Shown: positions 2,199-11,524 of the stretch, one piece after another
Layout of the letters: each line of letters starts with the position of its first letter
Position numbering within the stretch: position 1 is the first letter of the stretch
Assembly: GCA_017459965.1 (NCBI GenBank)
Contig: JAFUBW010000008.1
Span: 1 to 46,070, forward strand
Reading direction: 5' to 3'
From: Bacilli bacterium
GTDB taxonomy: Bacteria; Bacillota_I; Bacilli_A; RF39; UBA660
Length of the DNA stretch: 46,070 nt
Made by a program: the position numbers and the translations under genes
The notes under the pieces: model-generated
Database searches by the model: none
What the model saw: only the letters and a program-made list of their open reading frames with translations
Told to the model about the DNA's origin: nothing

Positions 2199-3789
<1,591 letters not shown>

Positions 3790-3905
3790 AAAAAGATTAT
3801 TCAATCCTAGTTACTCAAAAAAACATGACGTTTTACTCAGTTTTCAAAGATCATTTACACTGCTCTCTTGATAACTTTTTGTAAAGTTTCTTTTTTTCAC
3901 AGCGC
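3790..3905 (-). other. rRNA operon leader with boxA and 16S processing arm
   Basis: The transcribed leader runs from the inferred start near 3905 to the 16S 5' end. It contains a boxA (TGATCTTTGAAAACT, 3853-3839). Segments 3829-3840 and 3803-3816 are complementary, with G-U pairs, to spacer segments 2127-2138 and 2147-2160. This is the expected long stem cut by RNase III to release pre-16S. No open frame with a ribosome binding site was seen. Confidence 0.75.
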
Positions 3906-7626: not shown

Positions 7627-7833
7627 ATGAGAACATTACAATCTATAGCACTTACATTAACAATTATTGGTGCGATTAATTGGGGTTTAGTTGGTTTATT
7701 TGATTTTAATCTAGTCGCATTAATATTTGGTGGTGCCGACAGTATTCTTACAAAATTAATATATATCATTGTTGGTATATGCGGTATTATTAATATTAAA
7801 TTATTAATTGATTACGCAACTGATAATGATTAA
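7627..7833 (+). CDS. DUF378 family small membrane protein (YuzA-like)
   Basis: The 68-residue protein contains two membrane helices and the DUF378 signatures LTIIGAINWGLVGLFDFN and YIIVGICGI. The family is widespread in Firmicutes and has no known function. AAGGAGGATTATAA precedes the ATG. It is one of very few plus-strand genes here and converges on truA, sharing a symmetrical terminator with it. Confidence 0.88.
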   Translation: MRTLQSIALTLTIIGAINWGLVGLFDFNLVALIFGGADSILTKLIYIIVGICGIINIKLLIDYATDND

Positions 7834-7860
7834 AAATATAGATTTATTATCTATATTTTT
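7832..7860. terminator. bidirectional terminator between DUF378 gene and truA
   Basis: The arms AAAAATATAGAT (7832-7843) and ATCTATATTTTT (7849-7860) form a perfect 12-bp stem with loop TTATT. It contains the ends of both convergent genes: the plus-strand stop at 7831-7833 and the truA stop at 7859-7861. Confidence 0.8.
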
Positions 7861-8593
7861 AATATGTAACACTTTTTAAATATAGTCCTTCTGGTGGGGC
7901 TATTTTTTTATAATTTGTTTTCCCTTTTCCTTCAAGTATATTTTTCATTTCTTTTACATCATATTTTTCAAGACCTATTTGAATTAATATACCTACTATT
8001 ATTCTAACCATATATTTTAAAAATCCACTTCCAATAAATGACATTTCTAAATAATTATCTTTAATTTTTATTTTAGCGTTATAAATAGTTCGTATAGTAT
8101 TTTTTTCTTCAATTTCATTTGATGATAGATATTTAAAATCATATGTACCTATTATATAATTTATTGCTTCTTTCATTTTTTCTATATTTAATTTTTTACC
8201 AAGTTGATATACATATTTTCTTTCTATTGGATTAAATTCTCCCATATTTATCTTATATATATATTCTTTCTTTTTAGCATTATACCTTGAGTGAAATTCA
8301 TCATCAACCACTTTAGTACTTTTAACATATATATCATCAGGTAGTAATGAATTAAGAGCTCTTTTTAATTTATATTCTGTAATATTTACATCTATATCGC
8401 AATGTCCATATTGATTAATTGCATGAACAAAGGCATCAGTTCTACCTGATGATGAAAACTTAGTGTTTTTATTATTATTAATTTGTTTTAAAGCTTCTTC
8501 CATTTTTCCTTGTATAGTATTTAAACCTTTTTGTTTTTGATAACCATTATAATTTGATCCATCATATGAAAAATTTATTAAATACCTAGTCAT
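7859..8593 (-). CDS. truA: tRNA pseudouridine(38-40) synthase TruA
   Basis: The 244-residue protein isomerises uridines 38-40 in the tRNA anticodon arm. It shows YDGSNYNGYQKQ near the N terminus, the catalytic Asp53 in SSSGRTDAFVHA, DDIYVKS, HSRYNAKKKEYIY and FIGSGFLKYMVR. The chosen ATG (8593) has AGGTGA five bases upstream; a GTG nine bases earlier overlaps that site and is less likely. It is the last gene after the two ECF-like ATPase genes, the usual Firmicutes position of truA downstream of ecfA1-ecfA2-ecfT, although ecfT is absent here. Confidence 0.95.
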   Translation of the reverse strand: MTRYLINFSYDGSNYNGYQKQKGLNTIQGKMEEALKQINNNKNTKFSSSGRTDAFVHAINQYGHCDIDVNITEYKLKRALNSLLPDDIYVKSTKVVDDEFHSRYNAKKKEYIYKINMGEFNPIERKYVYQLGKKLNIEKMKEAINYIIGTYDFKYLSSNEIEEKNTIRTIYNAKIKIKDNYLEMSFIGSGFLKYMVRIIVGILIQIGLEKYDVKEMKNILEGKGKTNYKKIAPPEGLYLKSVTY

Positions 8594-8598
8594 ACAAA

Positions 8599-9342
8599 TC
8601 ACCTGATTTCTCTATATATTGACTTTATTAATTCATTAATAGTATCGTTATTTCCTAAATTAATATTACTTTTATTATATACCATATCTTCTATTTTTTT
8701 TATAAAAGGTTTTTCAACTAACGGATTATTTACAATTTCTTTTTCATTATATATAGAAAATTTATTATTACTTGATAAGCAATTTCCATTAATCAATAAT
8801 ACTAAATTATCTATAAATTCATATATTATATCTATATCTGTTGAAGATACTATTATAGTTTTATTATTAAATTTTTTAAGATTAATTATTATCTTTATTA
8901 TTTTTTTTCTTGTAGTTATATCTAATTCTTCAAGAATACCATTTATTAAAATAGTTTCATATTCTCTATTTAAAATATTAATAAATAAAATTTTAGCTTT
9001 TTCTGTATTACTTAATGTATTTATTTGTCTATTTATTATATCCTTATTAATTTCAAGTAAATCAAATAAACTATCATTTATATTTTCATCTAAATAATCT
9101 TTTACTGTACCATTTATCATTTCAATTGTATTGCTTATTGATATTATACCTAATCTTTTTTTAGAAAATCTTGGTATATATTTTATACTACCTTCATTTT
9201 TTATATCATTTACAATACAATAATTAAGATTAATTAAATCTTTTATATCATTAGAAAATATACCTGTTATTTTTTTATCCTCTATATCAAAAGATACTTT
9301 ATTTAATTTTTTATATGAAACATTATCTAATTTTATTTGCAT
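8599..9342 (-). CDS. degenerate ECF transporter ATPase (EcfA2-like), probably inactive
   Basis: The 247-residue protein has the layout of an ABC ATPase but has lost nearly every catalytic motif. The region of the P-loop (about 25-40) lacks GK[ST]. The signature LSGGQ is LSNTE (110-114). The Walker B Asp and Glu are replaced by Asn134 and Gly135 (ILING), and the switch His by Ser167 (VSSTD). The alignment to EcfA2 rests on LSNTEKAKIL, the EELD after Walker B, and position between an EcfA1-like gene and truA. The reading frame is intact with a good ribosome binding site, so it is under coding constraint. It overlaps the upstream gene by 10 nt. A structural or regulatory role is possible; transport is unlikely. 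Confidence 0.7.
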   Translation of the reverse strand: MQIKLDNVSYKKLNKVSFDIEDKKITGIFSNDIKDLINLNYCIVNDIKNEGSIKYIPRFSKKRLGIISISNTIEMINGTVKDYLDENINDSLFDLLEINKDIINRQINTLSNTEKAKILFINILNREYETILINGILEELDITTRKKIIKIIINLKKFNNKTIIVSSTDIDIIYEFIDNLVLLINGNCLSSNNKFSIYNEKEIVNNPLVEKPFIKKIEDMVYNKSNINLGNNDTINELIKSIYREIR

Positions 9343-10091
9343 ATTTCATCCACCACTTCTTCTATAGTATAAGTAACTTTATCAATAACATCATATAGTT
9401 TTAATTTTTCTAAAAGTTCATTTTCTAATGGTATATTTAATTTAGATTTCTTAATTATTTGATCATTTAAATATATTTTTTCTATACTTCCATCATATAA
9501 TACTTCTTTATCTATAATAATTATTTTATCTGAAAAAATGGCATCTTCTAAATTAGTTGTAGTAAATATGATAGTTTTTCCTTTGTCAATTTGATATTTT
9601 TTAAGTAAACCAATATATTCTAGTTTTGAATATTTATCAAAATAACAAAATATATTATCTATTAAAATAATTTCACTTTTATTTAATAATGCTTTTATTA
9701 AATTTAATTTTTGCATTTGTATATAATTTAATTCATATGGAGACATATTTATATAATCTATAAGTTTAAATTCTTTTAAATATTTCTTTATTTTTAATAT
9801 GTTATTTGATATTAATGTTAATTCTTCTAGTACAGTTTTTGAATAATAATTTACATTAGCAGTTATTAATGTAATTTTTGTTTTTGTTTTATCACTTATA
9901 GTTTTATTATTAATTAATATATTATCACAAGGTATATTTCCATTAATGATATTTAAAAGAGTTGTCTTCCCCTTTGAAGATGGCGTTGTTAATGCTACTA
10001 AAGATGACTTATTAATATTAAAAGACACATCTTTAAATAATTTGTTTTTATTAAAAGTAATACTTAAATTTTTAACACTAATATAACACAT
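9333..10091 (-). CDS. divergent ECF transporter ATPase (EcfA1-like), probably impaired
   Basis: The 252-residue protein resembles EcfA1: ISVKNLSITFN at the start, a P-loop-like TPSSKGKTT at 36-44 in which two conserved glycines are Thr36 and Ser39, then SPYELNYIQMQKLNLIKAL where LSGGQ is LNYIQ (121-125). Walker B reads IILIDN, with the catalytic Glu replaced by Asn146, and the switch His is Thr179. The ATG at 10091 is preceded by AGAGGTATT. It could still bind nucleotide but should hydrolyse it poorly. It has its own -10 box and is co-transcribed with the EcfA2-like gene and truA. No EcfT gene is present. Confidence 0.7.
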   Translation of the reverse strand: MCYISVKNLSITFNKNKLFKDVSFNINKSSLVALTTPSSKGKTTLLNIINGNIPCDNILINNKTISDKTKTKITLITANVNYYSKTVLEELTLISNNILKIKKYLKEFKLIDYINMSPYELNYIQMQKLNLIKALLNKSEIILIDNIFCYFDKYSKLEYIGLLKKYQIDKGKTIIFTTTNLEDAIFSDKIIIIDKEVLYDGSIEKIYLNDQIIKKSKLNIPLENELLEKLKLYDVIDKVTYTIEEVVDEICK

Positions 10092-10135: not shown

Positions 10136-10164
10136 AAAAAAAAGAAATAAATTTTCTTTTTTTT
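10136..10164 (-). terminator. terminator after the DUF1292-like gene
   Basis: The arms AAAAAAAAGAAA and TTTCTTTTTTTT (10136-10147 and 10153-10164) form a 12-bp A/T stem next to the stop codon at 10163-10165. It separates the two acidic-protein genes from the ECF-like/truA unit. Confidence 0.6.
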
Positions 10165-10408
10165 AAGCATAATTTTTTTTATCTTCTTCAACAAGTGACT
10201 TAAATTTATTTTTTAAATCTATTAATATATCATCGTTTTCTATTTCTATAATATATTCTTCATTATTATTAGATACTTTTTTAACAATTTTTATATCTTC
10301 TTCGTTATCTATATTTATTAAAAGTAAATATTTAATTCCATTTTCTTCAAGTTCACTTATAGAAAAATACTCTTTATTATTTTCTAATTTAATTATTTTT
10401 TTATTCAT
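10163..10408 (-). CDS. small acidic protein, possibly DUF1292-like
   Basis: The 81-residue protein is acidic and alternates short strands: EYFSISELEENGIKYLLLIN, EEDIKIVKKV and EEYIIEIENDD, ending in a helix. This order recalls the small DUF1292 proteins of Firmicutes, but the similarity is weak and no function can be given. Its ATG overlaps the stop of the upstream coiled-coil gene (TAATG), so the two are translationally coupled. Confidence 0.55.
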   Translation of the reverse strand: MNKKIIKLENNKEYFSISELEENGIKYLLLINIDNEEDIKIVKKVSNNNEEYIIEIENDDILIDLKNKFKSLVEEDKKNYA

Positions 10409-11463
10409 TAGTTAAAACTCCCTTCATTTATTCTTTCTAGATAATTATTTAATGATGGCATGATTTTACTAGATGAATATACTTGATTTAAGACAGCAGC
10501 TGGAACATCTTTTTCATATATTATTCTTATTTTGTTTTCTGCTTGTGAATCTGTTTGATTTAATTCAGGAACAACTATATTATCAGTATTTATAACATTT
10601 AAATTAGTATCTGGAACTGAATTTAATATAGTATCTAAATTAATAACATCGTCTGACGAATTAACATTTAAATCAGTATTTATATTATTATCCAATATTG
10701 GAACTTCATTAGGTGCTTCAAAAGTTATTGGATTAACAGGTATATCATCTAATACTGGTTCTGGTGTTTTTTCTTCAGTTTTAGAATCAACTACTGGAAT
10801 ATCTATTTCAGGAATAACAGGTTCTTCTTTTTCTTCTATAGTTGGTTCAACAATTGGTTTTATTTCATTAACAGATACATTTTCTTCTTTTGGTAATTCT
10901 ATTTCTGTTTTTTCTTCAGGTTCCTCTTCTTTTAAAACACTTCTAAGTTCACTTATTCTTTTTTCTTGAAGTTCTTCTAGTTCTTCATTTTTCTTATTTT
11001 GTACATCTTCTAAAACTTGTTTTAAAGTAGGATTATCACATACTTCAATTGCTTCAGAAATTTTTTGAAGTTGTTCTTTATAATTTGAACTTGTTCTATT
11101 TAAAGATTTAATATATTCTTTTTTAGAAGATTCTACACTATTTTTTGTTTCAACTAATTCTTCTTTTTCTTTTGATAAAGTATCTATATTTTCTTTTATA
11201 GAAGATAATTCTTCTTCTACTTCTTTAATTTTACCGGCAATTTCAATTAATTCATCTGCAGAAGCGTTAGTATTAATTTTTTCTCTATTAGATTCTTCTA
11301 AAGATTTTAATTCTTCCTCTTTTGTAGTTAATTTTTCTTCCTCTTTAACTATTTCATTTATTTTATCATTTAAAAGTCTTTCTGATTCTTCATCTTTTTT
11401 CATAAAATCTTTTAAAGTTTCATCTTCAATTGTTACTTCTTCTAAATCGATTATTTCATCCAT
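10408..11463 (-). CDS. acidic coiled-coil protein of unknown function
   Basis: The family of this 351-residue protein is not recognised. Residues 20-185 are a long charged coiled coil rich in Glu and Lys. Residues 185-270 are a Pro/Glu low-complexity linker. Residues 270-351 are less biased and end in a short block (IRIIYEKDVPAAVLNQVY onward) that looks like a conserved domain. No signal peptide or membrane segment is visible, so it is probably cytoplasmic. It has the best consensus promoter of this region and is coupled to the DUF1292-like gene. It follows the r-protein operon, a place where unrelated lineages have only the ecf genes. Confidence 0.75.
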   Translation of the reverse strand: MDEIIDLEEVTIEDETLKDFMKKDEESERLLNDKINEIVKEEEKLTTKEEELKSLEESNREKINTNASADELIEIAGKIKEVEEELSSIKENIDTLSKEKEELVETKNSVESSKKEYIKSLNRTSSNYKEQLQKISEAIEVCDNPTLKQVLEDVQNKKNEELEELQEKRISELRSVLKEEEPEEKTEIELPKEENVSVNEIKPIVEPTIEEKEEPVIPEIDIPVVDSKTEEKTPEPVLDDIPVNPITFEAPNEVPILDNNINTDLNVNSSDDVINLDTILNSVPDTNLNVINTDNIVVPELNQTDSQAENKIRIIYEKDVPAAVLNQVYSSSKIMPSLNNYLERINEGSFN

Positions 11464-11495: not shown

Positions 11496-11524
11496 ATTAT
11501 ACTTTTTTTTTGTTTTAATGTCAA
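11496..11524 (-). promoter_or_regulatory. consensus sigma-A promoter for the coiled-coil protein operon
   Basis: On the minus strand TTGACA (11524-11519) and TATAAT (11501-11496) are separated by exactly 17 nt. The coding start is about 33 nt downstream of the -10 box, with GAGGTG before the ATG. Confidence 0.85.

Follow-up and report, generated by a model that had tools for sequence, protein, structure and literature searches.

Gene organization at the locus

The DNA analysed here, a stretch of 46,070 nucleotides referred to as the window, is part of contig 14 of a 1.06 Mb genome that is 89.7% complete. On the minus strand the genes follow the order rpoA, rplQ, a 351-aa coiled-coil protein, an 81-aa DUF1292-like ORF, A1, A2 and truA. 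A1 and A2 are derived from EcfA1 and EcfA2, the two ATPase subunits of the ECF module, a vitamin importer in which EcfT is the membrane subunit. The features are listed below from the upstream to the downstream end of this minus-strand series, with the motifs placed under the gene that carries them.

10408-11463, minus strand: coiled-coil protein of 351 aa, lying between rplQ and A1 and conserved within the genus
10163-10408, minus strand: 81-aa DUF1292-like ORF, upstream of A1 and likewise conserved within the genus (PF06949 at 4.3e-4, under the cut-off)
9333-10091, minus strand: A1, EcfA1-derived pseudo-ATPase, 252 aa from the ATG (TIGR04520, AlphaFold2 model, congener orthologs)
9960-9986, minus strand: A1 Walker A remnant TPSSKGKTT (residues 36-44), Lys42 and Thr43 kept, first Gly gone
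9711-9731, minus strand: A1 signature position, LNYIQMQ instead of LSGGQ (LNYIQ is residues 121-125)
9648-9668, minus strand: A1 Walker B ILIDNIF, Asp145 kept, Asn146 at the catalytic Glu
9555-9557, minus strand: A1 Thr179 at the switch-His position
8599-9342, minus strand: A2, EcfA2-derived pseudo-ATPase, 247 aa (TIGR04521, AlphaFold2 model), overlapping A1 by 10 nt
9229-9255, minus strand: A2 site of the lost P-loop (SNDIKDLIN)
9001-9015, minus strand: A2 signature LSNTE (residues 110-114), Leu110, Ser111 and Glu114 kept; LS and E are conserved in genera without EcfT
8932-8952, minus strand: A2 Walker B ILINGIL, Asn134-Gly135 in place of Asp-Glu
7859-8602, minus strand: truA, directly 3' of A2 at the place of ecfT in other Bacilli, with a 4-nt ORF overlap with A2

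Both ATPase frames are open and overlap, as a preliminary description of this DNA had stated. It had also placed the pair between rplQ and truA, which is correct as to position, but the 351-aa and 81-aa genes stand between rplQ and A1. A GAGG about 8 nt upstream of the ATG bears out the ribosome binding site given for A1. The separate -10 box given with it did not hold up: 43 promoter-like matches were found against 43.9 expected, and a separate promoter for the A1-A2 pair has no support above chance.

The coiled-coil protein is fast-evolving, and many other genera have a short-chain dehydrogenase between rplQ and A1. A perfect match to TTGACA-17-TATAAT lies between rplQ and the coiled-coil gene (11496-11524, minus strand) and, judged by its sequence, is likely the start of the transcript carrying A1, A2 and truA. 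Downstream of truA on the opposite strand is a small DUF378 membrane protein (7627-7833, plus strand). The window also holds a 23S rRNA gene cut by the contig end (1-1964, minus strand) and a 16S rRNA gene (2201-3790, minus strand); the small ORFs listed within these are spurious.

Family assignment and fold

A1 matches the NCBIfam profile TIGR04520 at 3.2e-22 (79 bits against an equivalog cut-off of 315), and A2 matches TIGR04521 at 3.8e-13 (49 bits against a cut-off of 330). Single-chain AlphaFold2 models made with family alignments have a pLDDT of 91.5 for A1 and 95.7 for A2. In Foldseek searches ECF ATPases rank first for both models, 8bms_A for A1 and 4mki for A2; the query-normalised TM-score with the best ECF chains is ~0.82-0.87, and the whole protein including the C-terminal domain is covered. 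The A2 model keeps the ECF ATPase fold although it has no P-loop, and the best match of the A1 model, 8bms_A, is an ATP-bound, hydrolysis-dead 2EQ ECF module. The pair is like group II EcfA1/EcfA2 (8bms, 4mki) in profile, in a fold that includes the C-terminal domain, in the order rplQ-A1-A2-truA and in the A1/A2 overlap. The proposed EcfA1/EcfA2 origin is thus upheld by profiles, synteny and fold together, the profile search having returned ECF families. For a link to defence systems there was only a weak partial match to mad8, 38 residues long and over the P-loop region.

Loss of catalytic and docking residues in the window

Unlike group II ECF ATPases, the window pair has neither EcfT nor a catalytic Glu nor a switch His, and its signatures are decayed. 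Walker A is intact in neither subunit: A2 has none at all, and in A1 the first Gly of the P-loop is Thr36, so the remaining motif is not canonical. The positions of the catalytic Glu and switch His are occupied by Asn146 and Thr179 in A1 and by Gly135 and Thr168 in A2. Most of the earlier motif readings were reproduced, namely the missing P-loop, LSNTE for LSGGQ and Asn134-Gly135 for the Walker B Asp/Glu of A2, and Asn146 and Thr179 of A1. Two were amended: in A2 it is Thr168 and not Ser167 that aligns with the switch His, and A1, said to keep only GKTT, has kept the Walker B Asp145 as well. The description of both proteins as catalytically dead is right in that catalytic residues are lost in both, but it misses an asymmetric retention, of the Walker site in A1 and of the signature in A2.

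The acid that binds the X-Arg-X motif of EcfT, and the Q-helix motif X-P-D/E-X-Q, have been described (PMC6828968). The Q-helix motif is missing from A1 and A2 in the window and in all congeners. The EcfT-docking acid is present in A1 (Glu90), and A2 has Tyr83; unlike group II EcfA2, then, A2 lacks both Walker A and the docking acid.

The window copy is among the most degenerate. Members of its subclade have T, S or C for the first Gly of the A1 P-loop, and the window itself has Asn for the Walker B Asp of A2; the subclade has lost more nucleotide-site residues than the sister congeners G003-G005. These still have an A2 P-loop, and the nucleotide site therefore appears to be still decaying in the window genus. 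The P-loop of A1 is intact in the T-less relatives G005 and G020 (T-less: without EcfT between the pair and truA).

Purifying selection on the pair

Both genes are without stops in six of seven congeners, at 36-61% identity; the locus was not recovered from the seventh, a genome 64% complete. Because synonymous sites are saturated, the dN/dS values are rough upper bounds: 0.30-0.47 for A1, 0.24-0.61 for A2 and 0.17-0.32 for truA. The pN is 0.20-0.34, compared with ~0.66 with shuffled codons. A neutral simulation with an AT-rich third-position composition produced ~7.7 stops across the two frames already at 0.05 substitutions per site. The pair is under purifying selection, in line with the selection claimed for it earlier, and the open frames and dN/dS values (with dS saturated, again rough upper bounds) argue against pseudogenes.

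Absence of EcfT

PF02361 (EcfT) has no match in the genome of the window, in its 7 congeners or in any genus in which the pair adjoins truA without EcfT (hereafter T-less). A family-specific profile built from 11 EcfT proteins of the family was run on 39 genomes, those of the window and its 7 congeners among them, and found three chance-level fragments besides the EcfT-bearing controls (1e-58 to 1e-97, values that show that the search works and not its reach, since the controls' own EcfT is in the seed alignment). The reported lack of ecfT thus stands with both profiles, and an EcfT too diverged for Pfam is disfavoured as far as the family-specific profile can tell.

Ordinary relics beside a second, intact EcfA pair were also considered. 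Among the listed TIGR04520 matches of the same genome there is no second EcfA with an ECF C-terminal domain, no match outside ABC exporters covering that domain. The S-component profiles PF12822 and PF07155 have no match in this genome, but in most genera with EcfT they detect no S components either; the best matches of PF12822 fall in three EcfT-bearing genera, and most others are missed.

Repeated loss of EcfT in the family

The ancestral order in Bacilli is ecfA1-ecfA2-ecfT-truA, and a comparison of Bacilli includes one example in which ecfA1A2T was deleted as a unit (PMC8046335). Genome reduction and auxotrophy have been described for uncultured gut Bacilli (RF39) (PMC6784871). The present family may belong to that order. 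The regions upstream of truA were sampled from nearly all 58 genera of the family and annotated with local profiles. A1-A2 adjoins truA without EcfT in 26 of the 53 scorable genera, the window genus included; in the other 27, A2 and truA are separated by EcfT or by a membrane ORF at that position, G015, G021 and G087 being assigned to this class by position only. G034 and G064 have neither A1 nor A2, and in every fully assembled locus the two A genes are either both present or both lost. The A1/A2 overlap is 10 nt in nearly all genera, and the A2-truA spacing in T-less genera is mostly -11 to +20 nt.

A tree of 59 genomes (25 markers, 4377 columns) requires 8 separate losses of EcfT, or 7 with weak nodes collapsed, and the pair was kept in 6-7 of these losses; in G034 the pair was lost as well. 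The window genus and G068 share a single loss (support 1.00). Retention of the pair after EcfT loss is not unique to the window and recurs across the family. In contrast to the deletion of ecfA1A2T as a unit, here the membrane subunit alone has been lost, on several occasions, and the two ATPases, though stripped of their catalytic residues, remain under selection. The open-access literature yielded no description of ECF ATPase pairs that persist without EcfT.

In many genera that still carry EcfT, catalytic residues have already gone (A1 Glu 16/26, His 10/26), so the loss of catalysis does not wait for the loss of EcfT. In G015, G021, G062, G083 and G087, EcfT or the membrane ORF replacing it has strongly diverged or been reduced to 194-256 aa, and the ATPases are mostly without Glu/His; loss of catalysis thus seems to start while EcfT is still present. 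In one large clade A1-A2-truA is found downstream of yabG, spoVG and divIC, and the unit has therefore moved together. In one T-less clade it immediately follows a sporulation/division cluster of yabG, a veg-like gene, spoVG, yabP/yabQ-like genes and divIC (L123:817-4605 of G036; also L119 and L127).

Asymmetric decay of the two nucleotide sites

The two subunits have decayed differently. In T-less genera A1 keeps the Walker A Lys in 24/26 and the Walker B Asp in 24/26; A2 keeps the signature Ser and the signature Glu in 22/26 each and the Walker A Lys in 7/26. The difference in Walker A Lys between A1 and A2 gives a Fisher value of 2e-6, which overstates the significance as genera were treated as independent. 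The catalytic Glu is found in 2/26 (A1) and 3/26 (A2), and the switch His in 0/26 and 2/26, respectively. An ABC dimer sets the Walker motifs of each subunit against the signature of its partner; the kept residues therefore make up one composite site and the lost ones the other site. CFTR and similar heterodimeric ABC proteins, in which one site is degenerate, still have a membrane domain and one site that hydrolyses. The pair is like them in that one composite site is better kept and unlike them in that both catalytic Glu are gone.

An alignment of 58 A1 sequences is invariant only at Lys42, Asp145 and Pro221. A C-terminal Pro and Tyr of A1 and a C-terminal Lys of A2 are present in all 26 T-less genera. 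The gene overlap partly explains the last two or three residues, but the invariant Pro, Tyr and Lys sit further in.

The docking surface has changed unequally too. The A2 docking acid is present in 27/27 EcfT-bearing genera versus 5/26 T-less genera, and the A1 acid in 23/26 versus 16/26; within the window genus all seven locus-carrying members have the A1 acid. The Q-helix Pro is nearly gone in T-less genera. With the EcfT groove of A2 gone and that of A1 partly kept, there is some room for another helical partner.

Possible role of the retained pair

Retention across these losses points to a different present-day job for the pair. Glu-to-Gln exchange in either EcfA abolishes hydrolysis and transport, and the double mutant binds ATP and closes (PMC10368641). 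By the same token, with both Glu missing the pair would be expected to lack ATP hydrolysis, yet ATP binding and closure could persist. The retained proteins are best read as a constrained, non-hydrolysing heterodimer that probably binds one ATP. The proposed sequence of events begins with a group II ECF module, ecfA1-ecfA2-ecfT-truA, which would have lost EcfT by deletion. Both ATPase subunits would have been retained as an obligate heterodimer whose job does not depend on EcfT. One Mg-ATP (or other nucleotide) would be bound without hydrolysis at the site formed by the A1 Walker motifs and the A2 LSxxE, and the ATP-dependent change between open and closed states would act on a soluble partner, in the manner of a sensor, clamp or scaffold, and would not drive transport. 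We consider descent from a group II module with retention for such an EcfT-independent job to be about evenly poised. The broader proposal, that in at least six lineages of one family ECF ATPase pairs repeatedly became soluble pseudoenzymes that sense ATP, with a single composite site that does not hydrolyse and a role outside transport, is tentative and somewhat short of an even chance.

A mode of action of this kind has an analogue in PhnK/PhnL on C-P lyase (7z15, 7z16), which are among the fold matches of A2; they are a soluble ABC ATPase pair without a transmembrane partner and act on a soluble enzyme. They belong to another family, however, and there is no C-P lyase link here. The repeated losses amount to a replicated natural experiment on the capabilities of an ECF ATPase heterodimer that has no transporter, and they predict which nucleotide site matters. 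It also follows that an ecfA annotation in a reduced genome does not imply vitamin uptake.

Alternative explanations

The main rival of an EcfT-independent role is slow relic decay, in which vitamin uptake became unnecessary, transport was lost, and A1 and A2 are disappearing under weak residual selection. We regard it as unlikely, though it is a serious contender. Such decay would account for the graded series from an intact module through a diverged EcfT and no EcfT to truncated A1/A2 (149/183 aa in G014, 157/181 aa in G075) and finally to loss in G034 and G064. Measured against markers, the pair evolves roughly 1.5-2 times faster in genera without EcfT than in those with it, and both the greater degeneracy of the window copy relative to G003-G005 and the catalytic residues already missing beside EcfT point the same way. 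It is difficult to reconcile, however, with two open frames in all 26 T-less genera, which trace back to 6-7 separate losses, with the joint retention or joint loss of the genes at every fully assembled locus, and with specific residues and C-terminal motifs that are almost invariant. The dN/dS upper bounds are well below 1, and neutral drift would bring many stops. The truncated pairs of the sister genera G014/G075, and the G028/G073 pair, are 39-51% identical, with truA there at 51-56%; conservation of the T-less G028/G073 pairs almost as well as truA argues against simple decay.

A second explanation is that the pair acts as a transporter or regulates a channel together with another membrane subunit, which would be either an unrecognisably diverged EcfT or an unrelated protein. 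The preliminary description had similarly allowed for a distant transmembrane partner, an idea weakened by the lack of EcfT and of the A2 docking acid in T-less genera, of which the frequent retention of the A1 acid leaves a part standing. Strong divergence among the EcfT sequences of the family and the A1 acid in 7/7 locus-carrying genus members and 16/26 T-less genera favour such a partner. The family EcfT profile was negative in all T-less genomes, however, the A2 acid and the Q-helix Pro have largely disappeared with EcfT, and there is no catalytic Glu or His to power transport; the (insensitive) S-component search had no match in this genome. On balance we judge another membrane subunit improbable.

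It is very improbable that the ORFs are a translated lead-in coupling translation to truA, with dispensable protein products, since, despite the near-constant A1/A2 overlap, the close A2-truA spacing and the joint relocation of A1-A2-truA beside divIC/spoVG/yabG, amino-acid conservation goes far beyond the keeping of a frame (as the pN comparison with shuffled codons indicates) and is concentrated at nucleotide-site and C-terminal residues.
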